This document shows, piece after piece, positions 5,265-62,667 of a stretch of 64,000 nt of DNA. The DNA comes from Emticicia sp. C21. Its GTDB lineage: Bacteria > Bacteroidota > Bacteroidia > Cytophagales > Spirosomataceae. The notes beneath the pieces were generated by a model. That model was not told the DNA's origin, ran no database searches, and was given only the letters and a program-made list of their open reading frames with translations. Positions within the stretch are counted from its first letter, which is position 1. Each line of letters begins with the position of its first letter. The position numbers were made by a program, and so were the translations under genes. Location of the stretch: contig NZ_QVMT01000001.1 in the NCBI RefSeq assembly GCF_003418935.1, positions 124,001 to 188,000 of the forward strand. Direction: 5' to 3'.

Positions 5265-5312
5265 AAGTTATACAGTAGTTCCTCTAATTACTGACCCCTC
5301 TGCTCTTTAAGT

Positions 5313-6293
5313 TTATCCCCAGCGTTTTACACTTGTTTCAATCAGGCGCATTACCTCTGCCCCCTCAAAACCACTATCCGGATTTGGGCCTTTGTCTAAG
5401 AAATAGTTTACTACCGCTTCAATCATGGGTTGTTGCACGTGCAGAAGCGGTTCAAATGTGAGCACTTCGGCTTTGCCATCTATCTCAACAGTAATACTAT
5501 CAGTGCTGAAAACAGTAAAACTTATCTTACCCTTTGTTCCTTGAATCTCACAATAATCCGCGGCTTTTCCGGCATTAAAGCACCAGGTTCCGTTAAAAAC
5601 AACCCCGCTTTTAAACAAGATATTAGTTATTACCATATCATCAGCCTTATAGAAGCCTCCCTGGTTAGTGGCCAGACCTGTTACTTTCGCTACCTCGCCA
5701 AAGAAATAATACATCAGATCTAATTGATGTGGAGAAAGGTCATTGAATAAGCCCCCACCTGCTATGGCAGGGTCGATACGCCAGGCAGTTTTAGGGTCTG
5801 CAAATTCTTCGGGAGTTAAAGGAGTTTTGGCTAATTCGAGCCTCACTAATCTTACCTCTCCAATGGCTTTTTCTGCAATTAATTGTTTTACTTTTTTGAA
5901 TCGCTGCTGCTCACGACGATAGTGTGCTACTACCAGTTTGATGTTCTTGTCTCTGGCTGTTTCTGCCATATGTAGAGCAGAGGCATAATCGCCCGTCATA
6001 GGTTTTTCCACATAAACAGGTTTTCCGGCTTTGATGGCAGCAAGAGTATATTCTTCATGCGTAGAAGGAGGCGTAGCCACATAAATCGCATTTATTTCGG
6101 GGTCGTCAATTAATTGCTGTGCATCACTATACCATTTGGGCACACCGTGTCGGCGGGCATAATCTTCTGCCTTGGCTGCATCGCGACGCATCACAGCTAT
6201 TAATGATGAGTTTGGTACTTTATTAAAAGCAGGGCCGCTTTTGAGTTCGGTCACATCACCGCAACCGATAATTCCCCAGTTAATTTTTTCCAT
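5313..6293 (-). CDS. Gfo/Idh/MocA-family oxidoreductase
   Basis: 326 residues from MEKINWGIIGCGDV; an ATG ten codons earlier gives a less family-like start. The N-terminal Rossmann fold has GIIGCGDV at residues 7-14, and the family's catalytic E-K-P motif is at residues 96-98 in VYVEKPMT. The C-terminal alpha/beta domain includes DPAIAGGGLFNDLSPHQLDLMYYFFG, where GGG..D...H is the usual substrate-binding signature. These enzymes use NAD(P) to oxidise or reduce sugars, inositols or their derivatives. No transporter or kinase is adjacent, so the substrate remains open. No signal peptide, so cytoplasmic. Confidence 0.9.
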   Translation of the reverse strand: MEKINWGIIGCGDVTELKSGPAFNKVPNSSLIAVMRRDAAKAEDYARRHGVPKWYSDAQQLIDDPEINAIYVATPPSTHEEYTLAAIKAGKPVYVEKPMTGDYASALHMAETARDKNIKLVVAHYRREQQRFKKVKQLIAEKAIGEVRLVRLELAKTPLTPEEFADPKTAWRIDPAIAGGGLFNDLSPHQLDLMYYFFGEVAKVTGLATNQGGFYKADDMVITNILFKSGVVFNGTWCFNAGKAADYCEIQGTKGKISFTVFSTDSITVEIDGKAEVLTFEPLLHVQQPMIEAVVNYFLDKGPNPDSGFEGAEVMRLIETSVKRWG

Positions 6294-9400: not shown

Positions 9401-12400
9401 ATTTACATTCACTAAATTAGTCGGAGATGATGAGTTCTCTAAAACATTGATGTCTTTCACTAATACTGTACCATCATCAGACCCATCACTTTTCCATAAT
9501 TCTATTCCATTTGTTCCGTCATTAGCTGTGAAATATAAGACACCATTTACATTGGTTAAATAGTTCGGAGAGGAATCGCCCACAGGATTTACATCTTTTA
9601 CTCTCACCGTGCCAATGTCAGAACCATCGCTTTTCCAGAGTTCTATTCCAATGTCTCCGTCGTTAGCTGTGAAATATAAGGTGCCATTTACATTAACCAG
9701 ATTAGAAGGAGATGAACTGCTCGAAGTATTGATGTTTTTTACCAGAACAGTTCCGTTTGGTGTACCATCGCTTTTCCATAGTTCTATTCCATGGGTTTCG
9801 TCGTAGGCAGTAAAGTATAATGTACCATTTACATTAACCAGATTAGAGGGGGATGAACTACCGGAAGGGTTAATATCTTTTACCATCACTGTCCCCTCTT
9901 CGGTGCCATTACTTCTCCATAATTCGGTACCATTTGTACCATCATTGGCAGCAAAGTATAATACTTCACCGACATTTAAAAGATTATCTGGCAATGAGTT
10001 ACCTGAAGGATTTATGTATTTTACAATGATAGTTCCTTGCTCTGTACCATCACTTTTCCATAATTCGCTCCTCCCTATACCATCGTATCCTTTGAAATAT
10101 AAATTACCACCCATACTCGTCAGGTTATTCATGAAACTCATATTTGAGCCTTTTGACTCAAATATTGACATTGTACCCCCTAGCGAACCATCACTCTTCC
10201 ATAAGTTGAAGCTACTAAACGCACCCGGCGCTGTAAAATATAATAGCCCGTTTACGTTCGTAAGACTATTAATGCTACCACCACCACTACTTATAAGGTC
10301 TATACTCTGAAGCATACTTGTTCCTGCATCTGTCCCATCTGTCTTCCATAGTTCACCTGAATTTGAAGTAAAATACAAGGTACCATTGACATTGGTCATT
10401 GACCCTAGTGAAGCAGTTCCATCGCCAGAGTGGATGTCTTTAACCAATGAAGTACCGGCTAATGTACCGTTAGTCTTCCATAATTCGCTTCCGGTTGAAT
10501 TAGTATTGGCACCAAAGTATACAATGCCGTTTATCTTGGTCAGACCCTCAAAGTTGTCCTGATTATCAATGTCACTTATCGGAACTGTTCCACTCTCTGT
10601 TCCATCACTTTTCCAGAGCTCTTTACCGTTTGTTCCGTTCTCAGCCTGAAAATACAAGACTCCATCAAAATTAGTCAGGCTCATAATATTTGCGTCGCCG
10701 GAAATATTAATATCTTTCACCATAGATGTTCCGCCCTCAGTGCCATCACTTTTCCACAATTCTTTACCATGAACACCATCGTCGGCTATAAAGTAAAAAG
10801 CACCATTAAGTTCGGTGAACACTCCTGGAACAGAATTTCCTGTAGGATTAATATCTTTTACCAGTTCTGCGATAGTTCCATTGCTTTTCCATAATTCATA
10901 CCCATTTACACCATCATTAGCAGCAAAATACAATGTACCATTCAGATTGAAGACATTATTAATAATTGAATTCACAGAATTATCATTAATGTCTTTTATC
11001 ACAGTGGTTCCACCTGCTGTGCCATCACTTTTCCATAATTCATATCCATACATACCAGCATCAGCAATAAAATATAAAGTACCATTCAAATCAATCAGAT
11101 TACTCGGGTTTGAACTTGCAATATCAGGTGCTATATCTGCTACTAATTCAGCCCCGTCAGCAGTGCCATCTGTTTTCCATAATTCTTTTCCATTAGTATA
11201 ATCACCAGCCGCAAAATATATGGTTCCATTTATATTCAAAAATCCGCTCATAGGGAAAGCACTGCCTGTCTTCAATCGCACTGTGCCGTCATCAGTTCCA
11301 TCACTTTTCCATAAGTCAATTCCTCCTGAATTGAAAGCCTGAAACAGCAAAGTTCCATTTACGTTCACAAAAGTGCTTGCATTTGAAACCTTTTCGGTAA
11401 CTTTTGAAGTTTCCCCTGTTATACCATCAACTTTCCATAATCCTCCCATAGTCGTTCCATCAAAGGCACTGAAATACAGATTTCCGTTAATATTGGTCAG
11501 GTTGCTTATTTGTCCATCTCCTGACGGATTTATATCTTCTACCAGTACTGTTCCTGAGTCGGTTCCATCGCTCCTCCACAATTCAGTTCCATGAACCCCA
11601 TCATCGGTAACGAAGTATAAAGTATTATTGACAACAATCAATTCCTCAGGGTTAGAATTACTATTCGGGTTGATGTTTTTCACTATTTTTGTTCCACCAT
11701 CAGTTCCATTACTCTCCCATAGTTCAACGCCGTTTTCTCCATCATTGGCAAAAAAATACAACTTGTCGTTAAGTTTTACAAAATTGTATGGGCTCGAACT
11801 ATTAGCCCCTGCGCTGATGTTTTTCACCATATATGGCAACTGATTGAGAGCAGACACTGTAACCTCACTGGTTGCCAGACGGCTACTCTCGCAGGCACCA
11901 TTACGGCAACTTGCATAGAATGTAGTGGTATTTGCCGGGTAGTATTTAAATGGAGAAGCCTCTCCTATAAGCATACCATCTGTTGCCTGATTGTACCAGC
12001 GAAGTATACCTGTAGCACAGGTAGCGTTTAAAGTCACAACTCTACCATTGACAATAGTAGTGTTATCAGCTATAATCCCCGTTGGATTGCCGGGTATTGC
12101 ATTAATTACAACCCGGCCTGCATTTACTTTATTGCTTAAACAACCATCGCTCAGGCAGGCCGCATAATAAGTTATATCACTTACAGGAATATGGGTTAAC
12201 AAAGATGCGCTGCCAATAGAAGTTGTGCCATTAAGGTCAGTGTACCAACGCAAGCTCCCTGAGGAGCAGGTGGCTGCTAATGTTACTGACGCCCCGGCAC
12301 AGATACTTATTTTATCTACTGATACGGCTGTTGGGTCAGGTATAATTCTCACAGTTACTTCATTTGTTGGTTCCCTGGCACTCAAATCAACTTCTCTTTC

Positions 12401-30066: not shown

Positions 30067-30792
30067 TTATCTACTCAACAACTTCCGTTTCACCACAATC
30101 TCTATTACCTGCTCGCGCATGGTGCGGCTGATAGGGATGAGGTGGGTTTGAATGGTGATGTCGTTGTTTTCGATACTGCCGATTTTGGCGATGGCCACCA
30201 GATAAGATTTGTGTACGCGCAGGAAACGATTGGGGTCGAGGTATTCTTCGACGGTTTTGAGGGGTAAGAGGGTCATGTATTTGCCTCGGGTGGTGAAGAT
30301 AATAACGTAGTTTTGGAGGGCTTGTACAAAGAGTATTTCGTCAATCAATATCTTTTCATATTTACTTTCGCATTTGATAAACAGATAGTCAGGCTCGGTT
30401 TGCTGGGTCGGGTTTTCGGGTTTCTGGTTTTTGAGCCAGAAAAGTTCTTTGGCCTTATTGGTAGCTTTGAAAAAGCGATTGAAAGTGATGGGTTTCAGCA
30501 GATAGTCGACCACATCGAACTGAAAACCCTCAAGGGCATAATTGGGGTATGCGGTTGTGATGATTACCATAGGCAGATTTGCCTTGATTTTTAAAAATTC
30601 GAGCCCTGTCATGTGGGGCATCTGAATATCCAGAAAAATGAGGTCAATGCGTTCGTTTTCGAGTATTTTATTCAGTTCGATTGGATTTTCGGCAACAAAG
30701 GCGGGTTCGAGGTAGTCTATTACCTCAATGTATTTTGTTAAGCCCTCGCTTGCCAGCGGCTCATCGTCTACTATGACACACCTGAGTTTCAT
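30067..30792 (-). CDS. LytTR-family response regulator
   Basis: 241 residues. The receiver domain (1 to about 120) has the acidic pocket D9-D10, phosphoacceptor D55 in LIFLDIQMP, T79/T80 and K100 in YLLKPI. A linker of about 15 residues leads to a LytTR DNA-binding domain (about 135-238) with IDEILFVQALQNYVIIFTT, RFLRVHKSYLVA and the end PISRTMREQVIEIVVKRK. Phosphorylated by its partner kinase, it should bind direct repeats upstream of target genes. It overlaps the kinase gene by 4 bases (ATGA). A fragment of its 3' end at 26668 shows past duplication. Targets cannot be read from the sequence. Confidence 0.93.
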   Translation of the reverse strand: MKLRCVIVDDEPLASEGLTKYIEVIDYLEPAFVAENPIELNKILENERIDLIFLDIQMPHMTGLEFLKIKANLPMVIITTAYPNYALEGFQFDVVDYLLKPITFNRFFKATNKAKELFWLKNQKPENPTQQTEPDYLFIKCESKYEKILIDEILFVQALQNYVIIFTTRGKYMTLLPLKTVEEYLDPNRFLRVHKSYLVAIAKIGSIENNDITIQTHLIPISRTMREQVIEIVVKRKLLSR

Positions 30793-31856
30793 TTCAAATC
30801 TATGGCTAAATCTACTTTAAAGGTTTTGGCATCGGCGTCAATATGTAATTGATGCTGATGCGGATAAATGAGGTTTAAGCGTCGCCGGGCGTTCTTCAAT
30901 CCTATTCCTGACGAGGGTGAGTTTGACTCCCCTCCCCGACTGTTTTCTATATGCATCTCCAATTGTTTATTGTCTTTTACGGCCAGACACATCCTGATAA
31001 AATTCTTCTGTGTTTTGCCTTTTGATACATGCTTGAATGTATTTTCGACGAACGGCAGCAGAATAAAAGGTGAAATACTCACGCCCTGCGCAGAGGCATG
31101 GTTGATTTCGAACTGCAATTCGGTCTGATTTTCGTTGAGTCGGAGAGATTCCAGTTCGATGAAATTCTCTAAAAAATGTAGCTCCTTGCTTAGGGGAATC
31201 TCCTGGTCGTTGCATTCGTATAATTGATACCGCAACATATCTGAAAACGACGCCAGCGACTCGGAAGCCAAATCGGGGTTTTTATGGATGAGTACAAAAA
31301 TAGAGTTGATGGTATTAAACAGAAAATGCGGATTTATCTGTGATTTAAGGTATTTGAGTTCCGTTTCCAGATTGTCTTTTTCTAAATCCCGTCGTTTTTT
31401 CTCGGTTTCCAGCCAGTTTTTGCCCAATTTTATACTCATGGCAAAAGTCATGCTTCCGACTGTTGAGGGAAAAGCATTGGTGCTAAAAATAAGCAGGTAT
31501 TGGTCTGGCCGACGTCCGAATATCTGTTCAAAGGTCAAATCAGAGAAATAAGGAGCGAGATAATAACCACCCACAATAAAAGCCGAACAAACCAGAATAG
31601 TGAGAATTACCAAAGCAATGTAAGTTTTGTACTTGCCTACAAGCAAAAACCTGGGCATGAGGTAATACAGGTTAAAATAAGCGGCTAAGGCCTGAAAAAT
31701 GATATAACCATAGAATTTAACAGGAAAGGCCCCTAGAAAAAGATAAGCATAGGCATCGCTCAGATTACCGATGTTAATCCACATCCATAATAAATGATAG
31801 CCTATCCAGAAAACAATATGGTGAAGTTTATATCGAAAAAACCAGTTTTGCATCAA
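30789..31856 (-). CDS. LytS-like sensor histidine kinase (His_kinase family)
   Basis: 355 residues. About four TM segments lie in the first 145 residues. A short coiled coil (WLETEKKRRDLEKDNLETEL) leads to the His_kinase dimerisation motif LKSQINPHFLFNTINS with phospho-acceptor H177. The ATPase domain has PFILLPFVENTFKHV (N-box) and SGIGLKNARRRLNLIY (G-box). No separate periplasmic sensor domain is present, so sensing is probably within the membrane. Typical Bacteroidota partner of LytTR regulators; overlaps the regulator gene. The CRISPR leader region lies upstream on the other strand. Confidence 0.92.
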   Translation of the reverse strand: MMQNWFFRYKLHHIVFWIGYHLLWMWINIGNLSDAYAYLFLGAFPVKFYGYIIFQALAAYFNLYYLMPRFLLVGKYKTYIALVILTILVCSAFIVGGYYLAPYFSDLTFEQIFGRRPDQYLLIFSTNAFPSTVGSMTFAMSIKLGKNWLETEKKRRDLEKDNLETELKYLKSQINPHFLFNTINSIFVLIHKNPDLASESLASFSDMLRYQLYECNDQEIPLSKELHFLENFIELESLRLNENQTELQFEINHASAQGVSISPFILLPFVENTFKHVSKGKTQKNFIRMCLAVKDNKQLEMHIENSRGGESNSPSSGIGLKNARRRLNLIYPHQHQLHIDADAKTFKVDLAIDLK

Positions 31857-32118: not shown

Positions 32119-33796
32119 CTTTTAATCGCACCATTGAGGAATTGAAATTTTCCATGCGTTTTTTACAATAGCAGAAAAATTAACTTTTAATCGCACCATT
32201 GAGGAATTGAAATAAGCTGACAACCTTTTGTGTAACACTATGCGTTTGGCTTTTAATCGCACCATTGAGGAATTGAAATCAGGTTCAACCACGGGCTCAA
32301 CCACAAGTTCAACAGCTTTTAATCGCACCATTGAGGAATTGAAATGGTTAAGCCCCCTTTGCGTATCGCTCCTGTCAGCACCTTTTAATCGCACCATTGA
32401 GGAATTGAAATTAGCAGAAGCATTAGGAATAACAGTAAAGGAGTTAACTTTTAATCGCACCATTGAGGAATTGAAATTTCTCGGCCACTGCTTCTGCTAC
32501 ATTCATTATAAACTTTTAATCGCACCATTGAGGAATTGAAATTCATAAATTTCTTTTCCATGTTTATCTAAAAGTCCAGCTTTTAATCGCACCATTGAGG
32601 AATTGAAATCCTGGAAATCAAACATCTTTTTCATCAACACATCACCTTTTAATCGCACCATTGAGGAATTGAAATTGCCGTTAAATTGTAAAGATGGCTA
32701 AACGGTACAGCCTTTTAATCGCACCATTGAGGAATTGAAATAAAAGCAAAAGGAAAAAAGAGTAGTAAACGGTCGACTTTTAATCGCACCATTGAGGAAT
32801 TGAAATCCTGTACCCGTACCACCTGATTGAGCATTGTAGGCACTTTTAATCGCACCATTGAGGAATTGAAATGCACAAACCAATACCAAAGGCTTTAAAA
32901 AAGGCGACCTTTTAATCGCACCATTGAGGAATTGAAATTAGAATGACCGGAGTACCTGGCTTTACATTTCTTGCCTTTTAATCGCACCATTGAGGAATTG
33001 AAATATTATTAAAAACTACTCCTTCAAGGCTTCCAATTTCCTTTTAATCGCACCATTGAGGAATTGAAATATACAGGACGCAACCCCACAATAAAAAAAA
33101 CACCCCCCTTTTAATCGCACCATTGAGGAATTGAAATTCAGAGCCGATACTAAAAGGCAGATATTGGAGGTAACTTTTAATCGCACCATTGAGGAATTGA
33201 AATTTTGCAGTATTAGCGTATAGGTATTATAGAAAGCATCTTTTAATCGCACCATTGAGGAATTGAAATACGGAGAATAATGGTAAAGGCTATAGTTATC
33301 AGATGCTTTTAATCGCACCATTGAGGAATTGAAATATAAAGATTTTATTGCCTCATCTATTTTGTTTAGAACTTTTAATCGCACCATTGAGGAATTGAAA
33401 TCTAGAACTGGGCAATTACAAATAGCTCTAGCTAATACTTTTAATCGCACCATTGAGGAATTGAAATTTTTATAACAAAATACATTTCATTTAATACAGC
33501 TGCTTTTAATCGCACCATTGAGGAGTTGAAATTAATTGCTACCAGTTGAATCTATTACAAGGGTTTGACTTTTAATCGCACCATTGAGGAATTGAAATAC
33601 TGAAAAACCCATTTGTGATGCTACTGAACCTGAACTTTTAATCGCACCATTGAGGAATTGAAATATGGTTTCGGTATTAATACACCAGAATTAGATGAAA
33701 CTTTTAATCGCACCATTGAGGAATTGAAATTCTACTCAGGATCCTTTTCCTCTGTTAGCGTTTCCGCTTTTAATCGCACCATTGAGGAATAGAAAT
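32119..33796 (+). CRISPR. CRISPR array, 26 repeats and 25 spacers, no adjacent cas genes
   Basis: A 30-base repeat beginning CTTTTAATCGCACC and ending GAGGAATTGAAAT occurs 26 times, from 32119-32148 to 33767-33796, at 65-67-base intervals, giving 25 spacers of 35-37 bases. All copies are identical except repeat 22 (33503, one A to G in GAGGAGTTG) and the last (33767, T to A in GAATAGAAAT). Degeneracy at the right end and the repeat's 3' GAAAT place the leader on the left and transcription on the plus strand. The repeat resembles type I-B/III repeats of Bacteroidota, but type cannot be fixed without cas genes. None lies in the window, so the array is orphan or served in trans. All spacers look different by eye. 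Confidence 0.97.
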
Positions 33797-33811: not shown

Positions 33812-33940
33812 CTACGCCAATGCCTCTAATCTCTCAAAAACAGGAATCATGATTTTGCCTTTTTCAGTCAGATAGTATTCAGTATACAGGGATTTTAGTT
33901 TAATCGTTATTTTCCAGCAGAACAGCCTTTGCCCAGGTTA
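33812..33940 (-). pseudogene. 3'-end fragment of an HxlR-type regulator gene
   Basis: The complement reads KAVLLEN, then after a one-base frame break TIKLKSLYTEYYLTEKGKIM followed by IPVFERLEALA and a stop (33812-33814). The intact HxlR gene at 34865 ends LLEKVTIKLKPLHIEHYLTE then KGKTMIPVFETLEALVV. Only about 40 codons remain. The fragment begins 15 bases after the last CRISPR repeat and lies in the same orientation as the intact gene, on the other side of the terminase-like gene. Confidence 0.8.
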
Positions 33941-33956
33941 TACCCCTTATGACTTT

Positions 33957-34107
33957 CTCCACATGGTCTAACTGTCTGATTTTACCAAAGTCTTCTCCAA
34001 AAACTTTGAAAACACAAACCTAAGTAGGAAATTTAAGGAACGCCTGTTTTTTGGATAAACATTCACAATTAGGCGTGCGTAACTAGTTGTCCACACAAAT
34101 TAATATC
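33957..34107 (+). repeat. upstream flank shared with the 62-kb repeat gene
   Basis: Interrupted similarity to 61849-62026, directly before the start of the related gene there. Matching blocks include CCACAT...GTCTGATT, CTTC.CCAAA.A.TTTGAAA.CA, GGAAATTTA, GGATAA.CA..CACAA and CG.AACTAG just before the ATG. No reading frame is conserved across it by eye. It may contain the promoter or a 5' leader RNA. Confidence 0.55.
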
Positions 34108-34806
34108 ATGGAAAAAGAGAAAAACAAAATCAATCTAGGGGGTAGAGGCATCACTGACTACCTACCTGACTTTGAAGAGCAAGCCTACAATTATTGCCTT
34201 TTGGGGGCAACCAACGAGTCACTCGCCGAGTTTTTCGGGGTGTCTACTACTACCCTGAAAAAATGGATGAAGAAGTATCCGGGTTTTAAGGAATCTGTCA
34301 GAAGAGGGAAAGAACTGACTGATATGAAAGTAGCCGCAAGCCTGTATAAGAGAGCCATTGGCTATAATTACCTGCAAGTAGCCTTGGAGTTTGTGAAAGC
34401 ACCCCCTACCCAAACGAAACCGAAAAAGGTTACCGATACGGTGGGAACCTTTTTGAATGAGGAGTCTTTGGAAGCACCGGCTACTCAAACAGAACCTGAA
34501 AAGGTTACCGATATGGTGGGAACCTTTTTGAAAAAGGAGACTGTGAATGTACCCGTTACTGAAACGGAGCTTGAAAAGGTTACCCACATGGTAGGAACCT
34601 TTTTGAATGAGCCAAGCGATGGTTTAAAGAAAATCAGAATAACAACCAAGGAAGTAATACCTGATACCAGGGCTCAGATATTCTGGCTCAAAAATCGTCG
34701 GCCTGACTTGTGGCGGGACAAACGGGAAGTGAAGGATACACCGGAGAGCGAAAATCGGTCATACATAAGGATATTTGAATTACCCAATGACCACCGCAAC
34801 GATTGA
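34108..34806 (+). CDS. terminase-small-subunit-like HTH protein with inserted tandem repeats
   Basis: 232 residues from ATG at 34108. Residues 10-90 resemble phage terminase small subunits: YLPDFEEQAYNYCLLGATNE, then SLAEFFGVSTTTLKKWMKKY (helix-turn-helix) and VAASLYKRAIGYNY. The C-terminal part has IPDTRAQIFWLKNRRPDLWR followed by DKREV, also typical of that family. Between them lie three 25-residue repeats starting KVTDTVGTFLNE, KVTDMVGTFLKK and KVTHMVGTFLNE, each encoded by a 75-base unit that opens with a hairpin-forming palindrome. No large terminase, portal or other phage gene is nearby, so this is not a recognisable prophage. Possible roles are DNA-binding regulator or domesticated phage protein; unknown. 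A degenerate relative lies at 62027. Confidence 0.7.
   Translation: MEKEKNKINLGGRGITDYLPDFEEQAYNYCLLGATNESLAEFFGVSTTTLKKWMKKYPGFKESVRRGKELTDMKVAASLYKRAIGYNYLQVALEFVKAPPTQTKPKKVTDTVGTFLNEESLEAPATQTEPEKVTDMVGTFLKKETVNVPVTETELEKVTHMVGTFLNEPSDGLKKIRITTKEVIPDTRAQIFWLKNRRPDLWRDKREVKDTPESENRSYIRIFELPNDHRND
34423..34604. repeat. three in-frame palindromic repeats, 75-base period
   Basis: Copies at 34423-34454, 34499-34529 and 34574-34604 follow the form AAAAGGTTACC-N5-8-GGGAACCTTTTT. AAAAGGTT pairs with AACCTTTT, then one mismatch, then ACC with GGT, leaving a tiny loop. The period is exactly 75 bases, so the frame is kept and the complementary strand is open too. Sequence is shared with the five copies at 62129-62520. 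Confidence 0.8.
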
Positions 34807-34864
34807 GATTATCAGGCTAAAAGAGGTGACTTTATGGAAGCTAAATTTGGAGTGTATGATTCAT

Positions 34865-35179
34865 TTACACAACTAGCGCTTCCAATGTCTCAAAAACAGG
34901 AATCATTGTTTTGCCTTTTTCTGTCAGATAATGCTCAATGTGCAGGGGCTTTAGCTTAATTGTTACTTTTTCGAGCAAGCCTGCTTCTTCCAGTTCTTTT
35001 AATGCTAACGCTAGCGTTTGCTTGTTTGAGCCCTCCAGTTGGCGTAATAAACTACTGAAACGTAGTGGCCCCTGCATAGCCAGACGAAAGATTTCCGGCT
35101 TCCATTTTCCTGCCAAAAGCTTTAATAATGTCTGCGCAGGGCATGTTTCTGTATTTTCTTCAATCTTTTTAGTAGTCAT
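34865..35179 (-). CDS. HxlR-family transcriptional regulator
   Basis: 104 residues from ATG at 35179; the reading frame stays open upstream, but that part overlaps the divergent gene and lacks family similarity. The winged helix follows the HxlR pattern: CPAQTLLKLLAGKWKPEIFRLA (first Cys conserved), LRFSSLLRQLEGSNKQTLALAL, LKELEEAGLLEKV and the wing YLTEKGKTMIPVFETLE. HxlR proteins often sense redox or electrophile stress through the N-terminal Cys. The gene is divergent from the DsbA-like gene, about 100 bases between starts, suggesting shared control. A 3' fragment of a related gene lies at 33812. Confidence 0.9.
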   Translation of the reverse strand: MTTKKIEENTETCPAQTLLKLLAGKWKPEIFRLAMQGPLRFSSLLRQLEGSNKQTLALALKELEEAGLLEKVTIKLKPLHIEHYLTEKGKTMIPVFETLEALVV

Positions 35180-36259: not shown

Positions 36260-36275
36260 GTGAACCCCATTCCAA

Positions 36276-36329
36276 CCCTTCCCCGTTGTTGGGGAAGGGC
36301 TTAAAAGTCCCCCTTTAGGGGTTAGGGGC
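36276..36329. repeat. hairpin plus dispersed CCCCTAA-type repeat
   Basis: CCCTTCCCC / GGGGAAGGG (36276-36299) is a perfect 9-bp hairpin with a 6-base loop. Directly after it, AAAGTCCCCCTTTAGGGGTT (36305 onward, then AGGGG to 36327) is a copy of the dispersed repeat CCCCTAACCCCTAAAGGGGA, here in reverse. It sits between convergent genes and supplies the last codons and stop of the Kazal gene. Confidence 0.6.
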
Positions 36330-37614: not shown

Positions 37615-37692
37615 GGCTGTTAACGTATATCAAGTCTGTGGTTATTATTATTAACAACTCAATGAGGCTTATATTGTTTGGGAGGAGGGGAT

Positions 37693-37837
37693 AATTGAGT
37701 GATTTTGAAATTGAGTGATTGAGTGATTATGTTGTCTGAATTTTGATTAACCTGATTGCATGATTTATAATGATAATATGTAAATCATGAAATCAAATTA
37801 ATCAGCTAAATCATAGTTCAAGACTAATCACTCAATT
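37693..37837. repeat. inverted AATTGAGTGATT repeats
   Basis: AATTGAGTGATT (37693-37704), with two further GAGTGATT copies to 37728, is matched by AATCACTCAATT at 37826-37837, flanking about 100 bases of AT-rich DNA before the yjdM stop. Similar AATCACTCAATT words occur at 1095-1130. Low-complexity origin is possible. Confidence 0.45.
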
Positions 37838-37840
37838 CTT

Positions 37841-38179
37841 CTAAGCTTTCCTCACAAATTCAGATTTTAAGCCCATTGCTCCAAAGCCCTCTATTTTGCA
37901 GTCTATATTATGGTCACCGCCGGTCAGGCGAATGTTTTTTACCTTTGTACCTGCTTTCACGGGTTTAGGCGCGCCTTTTACGGGTAAGTCTTTGATTACT
38001 ACTACCGTATCGCCGTCTTTTAGTTCATTTCCATTGGCGTCTAATACTTTCATGCCTGACTCTTCGATTACGACTTCGTCAGGATTCCATTCATAAAAGC
38101 ATTCCGGACATATCAATAATCCATCGCTCGGATACACATACTCACTTTTACATTTTGGACAAGGCGGAAATGCTGACAT
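37841..38179 (-). CDS. yjdM: YjdM/PhnA-type zinc-ribbon protein
   Basis: 112 residues. An N-terminal zinc ribbon has C7-x2-C10 (PPCPKC) and C24-x2-C27 ([10 protein letters not shown]). The C-terminal PhnA domain has [31 protein letters not shown] and [20 protein letters not shown]. This is a near-complete match in order and length to YjdM, historically called PhnA although it is not a phosphonoacetate hydrolase. Biochemical role is uncertain. Cytoplasmic, monocistronic. Confidence 0.93.
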
Positions 38180-61621: not shown

Positions 61622-61848
61622 TCTTAAACCCTTCATTTACAATAATTGCCCTATCAAAATCTGACAAAGCACTTATAAAGCATGCATCAAAGCAAAGTGA
61701 AAGCACTAGCCAAAGCATTTATAGTATATATAAACCAGGAAGTAAAGAATAAATAAACTATTCAACTAAAAAAGTATATTGTCGAAACTGATTAAGATTC
61801 AGGAAATAAATGCTGAGTATGTGTATTCCTTAAAATTTGATATGACCA
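61622..61848. other. gene-free stretch, nothing recognised
   Basis: AT-rich DNA after the fusion gene with no convincing open frame, hairpin or repeat. From 61849 it continues into the flank shared with the 34-kb repeat gene. Confidence 0.5.
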
Positions 61849-62026
61849 TCTACCACATTCGATATAACCCTCAATAGTCTGATTCTATCGAAAACCTTCC
61901 CAAACATTTTGAAAGCATAATCCAAAACCAGAAATTTATGAGGATGCCAGGTTGGTAGTGCCAAGACATGGATAACAACACACAACAAGTAGTTCGCAAC
62001 TAGCTGCCTGCATAACAACTATTGCC
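61849..62026 (+). repeat. upstream flank shared with the 34-kb repeat gene
   Basis: Counterpart of 33957-34107. Matching blocks in order: CCACAT, AGTCTGATT, CTTCCCAAACATTTTGAAAG, AGAAATTTATG, GGATAACAACACACAA and CGCAACTAG, ending at the ATG. Suggests both genes were copied with their upstream region. Confidence 0.55.
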
Positions 62027-62542
62027 ATGAATAATAAAAAGAAAGCCTACAATTACTGTCCATTGAGTGCCACTCAAAAGAACATTACCCGTCTTTTTTG
62101 GGTGTCTCCAACTACCAAAAAGAAACCTAAAAAGGTTACCAATATAGTGGAAACCTTTTTCAAAGAGAACAGAGATGGTATAGAGAAAAACAGAATTACT
62201 ACTCCTAAATCGAAACCGGAAAAGGTTACCATTATGGTGGGAACCTTTTTCAAAGAGAGCAGAGATAGTTTACAGAAAATCAGAATTACGAATCCTAAAT
62301 CGAAGCCAGAAAAGGTTACCATTATGGTGGGAACCTTTTTCAAAGAGAGCAGAGATAGTTTACAGAAAATCAGAATTACTACTCCTAAATTGAAACCGGA
62401 AAAGGTTCCCAATATGGTGGAAACCTTTTTCAAAGAGAGCAGAGATAGTTTACAGAATATCAGAATTACGAATCCTAAATCGGAACCGGAAAAGGTTACC
62501 ATTATGGTGGGAACCTTTTTGCATGAAGACAGCCGTAAATAA
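62027..62542 (+). CDS. degenerate relative of the 34-kb gene, mostly tandem repeats
   Basis: 171 residues. The first about 35 (KKAYNYCPLSATQKNITRLF, then WVSPTTKKK) align with the HTH start of the protein at 34108 (EQAYNYCLLGATNESLAEFF, then GVSTTTLKK) but lose the HTH helices. Five 30-residue repeats follow: KVTIMVGTFFKESRDSLQKI then RITNPKSKPE. The terminase-like C-terminus is absent. It may be a decayed copy kept open by the repeat structure, or a repeat protein with a role of its own. Highly basic. Confidence 0.55.
   Translation: MNNKKKAYNYCPLSATQKNITRLFWVSPTTKKKPKKVTNIVETFFKENRDGIEKNRITTPKSKPEKVTIMVGTFFKESRDSLQKIRITNPKSKPEKVTIMVGTFFKESRDSLQKIRITTPKLKPEKVPNMVETFFKESRDSLQNIRITNPKSEPEKVTIMVGTFLHEDSRK
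62129..62520. repeat. five in-frame palindromic repeats, 90-base period
   Basis: Palindromes start at 62129, 62220, 62310, 62400 and 62490, each AAAAGGTTACC-N5-8-GGGAACCTTTTT or a variant with one or two changes, at the head of a 90-base unit. B, C and E copies are nearly identical. Period is a multiple of three and both strands stay open. Confidence 0.85.
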
Positions 62543-62667
62543 TTAATATACCTAGATTACGGGATGGTTAGCAGAAGTTATTCCATTGTAGTGAAATTAA
62601 AACAAGTTCACTGTAACCTTTTTTCAGAACCTAAGTATCCACACAAAAATCACTTTTAAATTTATTC

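Follow-up and report, generated by a model that had tools for sequence, protein, structure and literature searches.

A palindrome array within a terminase-small-subunit-like gene of Emticicia belongs to a dispersed family of modular elements with an apparent origin in a phage DNA-packaging gene

The palindrome array within a phage terminase-small-subunit-like (TerS-like) gene of Emticicia is a single member of a dispersed family of modular elements, which descends from a phage terS gene and is found in two sister Emticicia species only. About sixty related elements, whose source appears to be a DNA-packaging gene of a phage, lie mostly in the 5' region of diverse genes and in the direction of those genes, and they may be control sites of Emticicia genes. 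In order, an element consists of a 66-bp leader, the terS gene or its remnants, usually 1–5 palindromic units and, in some copies, a 3' tail.

The array was found in a 64-kb stretch of DNA (64,000 nucleotides, hereafter the window; the parts of its two elements are on the forward strand) from a genome of 6.64 Mb in 33 contigs (G000, genus Emticicia). The TerS-like gene (34108–34806) encodes 232 aa from its ATG and matches phrog_309, phage terminase small subunit (E 6.2e-41), over both its N-terminal HTH part (34108–34385; N-domain dN/dS 0.13) and its C-terminal part (34614–34803, PDTRAQIFWLKNRRPDLWRDK...; C-domain dN/dS 0.11), the two parts being delimited by alignment. Between them repeat detection placed three 75-bp tandem units (34386–34611), each with a near-perfect, in-frame palindrome of the general form AAAAGGTTACC-N8-9-GGAACCTTTTT (34424–34454, 34499–34529 and 34574–34604, spaced at exactly 75 bases), which bears out the period and the location given in the preliminary description. 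The peptide KVTxMVGTFL given there holds for the second and third palindromes (KVTDMVGTFL and KVTHMVGTFL) but not for the first, KVTDTVGTFL, which has T in place of M, and the DNA sequence given for the copies fails at the third, which is GGTAGGAACC and not GGTGGGAACC; the complementary strand is open as described (34219–34587, 122 aa). A second array in the window (62122–62520) holds five palindromes at 90-base spacing (62130–62520), and the 64-kb window has 8 palindrome matches in total, against 0 in 100 shuffles. This second array lies in a remnant ORF of 171 aa (62027–62542), a degraded HTH followed by 5 repeats, in whose N-terminus a decayed version of the TerS-like gene can be made out by eye; a terminase family was absent among the 15 matches listed for it.

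A CRISPR repeat identity for the palindromes was rejected, as the stretches separating them are themselves repeated and are not unique spacers. A CRISPR-like array of 66-bp period (32122–33796, repeat CTTTTAATCGCACCATTGAGGAATTGAAAT) does occur in the window and ends ~300 bp upstream of the TerS-like gene. Elsewhere in the window are 141-bp tandem repeats (9477–9962, 2–3 copies per repeat-finder row) and four stretches (30446–30649, 31292–31386, 36265–36315 and 37690–37850) that match many places in several Emticicia genomes and are probably further dispersed repeats or gene families.

Phage proteins, some of them annotated as terminase small subunit, share ~50% identity with half of the TerS-like protein; the match falls into two pieces in 7 of the 8 phage matches listed, and none of 388 matching phage records covers 80% of the protein. 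The one phage relative examined has a short linker without the palindromic unit. Among the Emticicia relatives, KVT-type units in the linker number 0 (L097, L133 and the prophage L139), 1 (L114), 3 (the window gene) or 5, some degenerate (L110), and the L097 linker carries a loose hairpin of other sequence (9 mismatches, 8/9 pairs). A search against solved structures gave no significant match. The few full-length TerS-array proteins carry the mark of purifying selection: dN/dS is 0.16 between the window gene and its ortholog in the sister species G001, compared downstream of an internal stop in the ortholog, 0.19 for the array part of the same pair, 0.07–0.25 by domain among four array-bearing TerS genes, and 0.06–0.26 over all TerS pairs where it could be computed, several pairs being saturated at synonymous sites. 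As synonymous changes dominate, the TerS-array proteins were long kept as proteins.

No TerL partner was found near the window gene, the only TerL match in G000 lying at C23:591243, where it forms a terS-terL pair whose neighbours, like those of its G001 counterpart, look bacterial by eye. This standalone cassette was considered as an autonomous mobile element and rejected: by eye, its two copies (L175 and L176) appear to be one resident locus with the same two outer genes. Since the locus seems resident in both genomes and a search for a clean empty site found none, mobility of the cassette is not claimed. Two further observations concern the surroundings of terS genes. The 3' end of an HxlR-type regulator gene (33822–33913) is duplicated at 34878–34969 (82% identity), flanking the window's TerS-like gene as if that gene had arrived with the duplication. 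A prophage of G001 with its own terS-terL (L177, G001:C24:40000-58000) has a reverse-transcriptase-like ORF (5291–6256) behind two short genes with similar C-termini, an arrangement that by eye resembles a diversity-generating retroelement.

Genome-wide, the palindrome is repetitive, as had been suspected: G000 holds 148 matches at ≤3 mismatches (87 forward and 61 reverse), and a reversed-pattern control gave 0. Of 58 genomes (that of the window and relatives), 2 have a palindrome match; in genome_contigs, a collection that may omit the genome of the window, the exact pattern occurred only in Emticicia sp. BO119 (27 stretches), and a virus origin of the palindrome was rejected on 0 exact matches in viral_contigs. 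A model of the leader found at least 58 copies in G000, at least 31 in G001 and 0 in nine other Emticicia, with 150 first-look candidates scored per genome, so that the counts could be low. A family search of 200 genomes (24 candidates scored per genome) gave 54–78 bits in the two species and weak matches of 20–24 bits in four other genomes, which were treated as chance or as very distant, and a family extending beyond the two species was accordingly set aside. That no family with this sequence had been described agrees with a search of open-licence papers, which found none.

For G000, 100 listed palindrome matches and two terminase places yielded 50 stretches which, with the window, gave 52 arrays of 1–5 close palindromes, 134 in all; eight further leader loci, six of which have a palindrome at ≤3 mismatches, were left out of the counts that follow. 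Eighty leaders from G000 and G001 were aligned (consensus pieces AACAGTnTGATTnTACCAAAAACCTCC..AAACACTTTGAAAACACAAT..AAGTCGGAAATTTAGG), among them that of the window's TerS-like gene (33970–34035; model E 4.6e-16) and that of the second window element (61873–61938; alignment and model). The 3' tail begins with the stop codon of terS, and in 21 of 78 elements its score exceeds the highest from shuffled sequence. Its likeness to the tail of truncated elements is weak in the TerS-like gene (34797–34847, around and after the stop codon; score 21 vs shuffled maximum 17), and in the second element (62543–62610) its end is inferred at ...AAACAAGTTCA by comparison with the empty site in G001. Upstream of the second leader lies a repeated block (61635–61808, CCTGTCAAAATCTGACAAAGCACC... 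in relatives) that is common to other loci in the same orientation, and across both genomes it precedes several leaders, almost always in one orientation and at variable distance. Some repeated stretch within the genome is shared by the upstream flanks of 14 G000 and 10 G001 leaders of the 80, in the same orientation except for one 25-base match.

The leader and the palindromes, as palindromes, are retained while the coding parts are mostly lost. Among the 49 G000 arrays with ≥400 bp upstream (3 of the 52, cut by contig ends, were dropped), the leader is kept in 48, half of the HTH core in 5 and half of the C-terminal domain in 2. Nearly all arrays thus sit in leader-terS elements (L096 is without a leader), so that an identity with REP/BIME, short palindromes outside a longer element, was rejected. 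In G001 a leader was found at 29 of 33 loci fetched for their palindrome and at none of L120, L122, L125 and L131, the L122 leader being placed by the model though the script found none. Internal breakpoints vary from locus to locus, and the shared deletion breakpoints expected from the spread of one truncated master copy were not seen. The majority of copies are remnants of terS that no longer code and precede other genes; at L069, L103 and L104, the mechanical ORF of the downstream gene starts inside the element.

Between neighbouring close palindromes, 60 of the 94 spacings are divisible by three, and in 51 of the 94 pairs both members lie in one open frame, which we read as a trace of in-frame ancestry and not of present coding. 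These spacings, and the array dN/dS of 0.19 between the two orthologs, speak for selection of the KVTxMVGTF unit as protein with the DNA palindrome as a by-product. Against it stand the 43 of 94 adjacent pairs outside one open frame, the persistence of palindromes where most of the gene is lost, the compensatory stem changes described below and the phage relative without the unit; a protein-level repeat is thus contradicted for the dispersed copies and possible for the few intact genes, and as a general explanation it is very improbable. The preliminary description had likened the palindromes to elements that invade coding regions without breaking them, as do the Rickettsia palindromic elements, which are palindromic repeats translatable in frame and inserted in many unrelated genes. 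By protein alignment, the intact coding copies found do stay in frame, in three TerS-like genes (window, L110 and L114); but these are all of one gene family, in which it is the linker of a phage terS gene that the palindrome occupies and expands, and the other copies are mostly non-coding, with 51 of 94 pairs in one open frame and 5 of 49 arrays retaining half of the HTH. Invasion of coding regions is accordingly hardly credible as the origin of the family.

The suspected constraint on the palindrome as a palindrome was upheld by compensatory changes in the stem. In 199 palindromes (119 distinct) from 80 leader regions, both stem partners were changed with pairing kept in 26 cells; 1000 shuffles, which ignore relatedness, averaged 3.7 such cells and reached 14 at most. 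To be admitted, palindromes that match loosely had to show at least 7/9 pairs, G-T counted, a rule that favours pairing in this count. Several loci have a second stem type, GGTAGnC/GnCTACC. An RNA-level device, in which hairpins transcribed in the 5' leader RNA act as attenuators, terminators or stability elements, would suit the position of the elements upstream of genes and in gene orientation, as well as the folding energies of the A-tract/T-tract hairpins (-10.5 to -16.3 kcal/mol); the folding check that had been proposed gave an intermediate result, single hairpins being moderately better than shuffles (z -1.5 to -3.3, five folds). However, among 91 distinct close palindromes there were 2 G-T/T-G cells and 6 A-C/C-A cells, and RNAalifold predicted 0 pairs over the 80 leaders, which does not support the leader as a structured RNA; the lack of a G-U excess over A-C, together with the lack of leader structure, fits a DNA site better than RNA. 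In a terminator scan of 33900–35000, 1 terminator-like site was found where shuffles give 1.4, which led us to reject an intrinsic terminator, and no known RNA family matched within the window at Rfam gathering scores. In the alignments examined, moreover, blocks conserved among relatives separate element and gene, so that transcripts of the gene may in many cases not include the array. We consider a device acting in RNA improbable. The canonical Bacteroidota promoter motif is TAnnTTTG; it is present in 1 of the 80 leaders, and the leader was rejected as such a promoter.

The palindromes are also insertion points. A G000-wide search with the end of an IS3-type element (so labelled from a reading of the IS frames) gave six matches, five exact and one with 2 mismatches. 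All five exact ends begin after 16–17 bases of the 31-bp palindrome, at its centre, and the sixth lies outside any palindrome; at the junction of the other IS end, a palindrome half comes next in 4 of 5 cases (not at L080). In G001, a related IS copy at L135, which was among the loci chosen for their palindrome, is inserted at the same point. Several contig breaks of G000 are IS3-type insertions at a palindrome centre (L108, L111, L167, L170 and L185). REPs are known IS targets at their symmetry axis (PMC1525189). The Emticicia palindromes resemble REP/BIME in being many, dispersed and entered by an IS at the centre; unlike REP/BIME, they form part of a longer element that derives from terS and has a leader.

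With ORFs called mechanically, the first ORF on the 3' side of the element runs in the element's direction for 45 of 47 G000 leaders (3 of 50 leaders without a next ORF in the sequence examined were left out) and for 29 of 30 in G001. The exceptions are L077 and the window's TerS-like gene, upstream of which the 'ORF' lies in the CRISPR-like array, in G000, and the ortholog of the window gene in G001. Since divergent pairs make codirectionality automatic, the tandem pairs are the informative ones, and these are codirectional by 21:1 in G000 and 16:0 in G001 (p 1e-5 and 3e-5). The gene that follows at L097 and L133 is their own terL or terS, and leaving these two loci out gives 20:1 and 15:0. 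G000 and G001 are not independent samples: 18 ortholog pairs carry a leader on both sides. Gaps of ≥60 bp in four G000 stretches comprise 23 tandem, 17 divergent and 11 convergent cases. The placement is opposite to the published pneumococcal pattern, in which BOX, RUP, SPRITE and IS are over-represented between convergent genes (PMC3049150). The downstream genes include those for an ATP synthase alpha/beta-family subunit, a 2-oxoglutarate-dehydrogenase-type E1, a class I tRNA synthetase, IGPD, three ECF sigma factors, peptidases and hydrolases; no family was found for 3 of 37 downstream proteins scanned, and a functional theme, sought in the 37 of 47 downstream proteins listed, was not apparent.

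Comparison of relatives revealed empty sites. Two elements at L066 are absent from the syntenic sites in both G001 and G008, and the second window element is absent in G001, with other DNA at that place in G008; other element sites are occupied in both species. Terminal inverted repeats and target duplications were not seen by eye in these comparisons, in which the flanks are too diverged to place both ends. Across the 18 ortholog pairs, gapped columns number 3 of 1188 in the leader, 689 of 4140 upstream and 683 of 2817 in the middle part, the choice of pairs with a leader on both sides favouring leader retention. Leader identity is 75% against 83% for the downstream flank, which is largely coding, only 4 of the 18 leaders have their ortholog as the nearest match, and the number of palindromic units differs between orthologs. 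The leader data are compatible alike with old, fast-changing sites, with exchange among the copies and with separate arrivals.

The main rival to a host role is that these are selfish, non-autonomous repeats like BOX or BrickBuilt, a terS-derived unit spread in trans, with the 5' codirectional pattern left by selection against antisense transcription and disrupted genes; we regard this as possible, on the doubtful side. High copy number, strict lineage limit, the three elements whose sites are empty in a relative, unit numbers that vary between orthologs and downstream genes without an evident common function all suit it, as does the anatomy. BOX of Streptococcus pneumoniae (boxA-boxBn-boxC; PMC3049150) is likewise dispersed, with a 5' module, internal repeats whose number varies between relatives and a 3' module, an anatomy matched here by the leader in 48 of 49 arrays, the 1–5 palindromes and the tail in 21 of 78 elements. 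The likeness is one of anatomy; phage terS descent is visible in the Emticicia elements, terminal inverted repeats are not established, and the elements are 5' and codirectional, whereas BOX favours convergent gaps. The BrickBuilt MITE of Porphyromonas gingivalis, from the same phylum, is similarly a leader, a tandem repeat and a tail, intergenic, lineage-limited and variable in repeat number, but is described in PMC4596501 with 23-nt units lacking spacers, inverted-repeat ends and 19 copies in one strain, in contrast to the mostly 75–90-bp, palindrome-bearing, terS-derived units of Emticicia. Against selfish spread count the retention of leader and palindromes while the rest decays with breakpoints that differ per locus, the near absence of convergent sites in contrast to their pneumococcal over-representation, and terminal inverted repeats and target duplications that are not established.

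The explanation that we favour, tentatively and with confidence short of even, is a modular family descended from a phage terS gene in which a domesticated TerS-like protein would recognise a pac-like module and modulate transcription. In the phage ancestor, by analogy, the module would have been a pac-like region recognised by TerS. The pac of P22 lies in the terS gene (PMC9611059) and that of SPP1 comprises repeats around the terS promoter and start (PMC4737164); in both, the small-terminase gene has repeats or a recognition sequence inside it or at its start. The putative Emticicia sites differ in their spread over ~60 places in the chromosome. A domesticated TerS-like HTH protein may bind the leader and palindrome arrays upstream of ~60 transcription units and modulate their transcription; this would account for why the elements stand 5' of genes, share one orientation and have kept their palindromes. 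Counting against a regulatory role are the lack of a function evidently common to the downstream genes, a leader that is not a TAnnTTTG promoter, and the internal stop that the G001 ortholog of the window gene now has, which is odd for a global regulator. In vitro binding of TerS to pac in phages is reported as weak and largely non-specific (PMC9611059, PMC4737164), which counts against an easy phage analogy. A wider version, in which a packaging-recognition system was domesticated and its module copied before some sixty genes, core ones included (those of the ATP synthase subunit, the E1, the tRNA synthetase and the three ECF sigma factors), founding a lineage-specific regulatory or chromosome-organising network, seems to us rather unlikely.

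In the two sister genomes the type of parent gene (a phage terS) can be seen together with relatives that still code and are under purifying selection, with shortened descendants that no longer code, and with sites that are empty. Bacteria commonly harbour small dispersed repeats, but the origin of these can seldom be traced and their function is seldom decided. With parent gene type, coding relatives, descendants and empty sites all present, and a pattern relative to genes opposite to the pneumococcal one, a direct test is possible in Emticicia of whether sites for phage packaging can turn into control elements of the chromosome.
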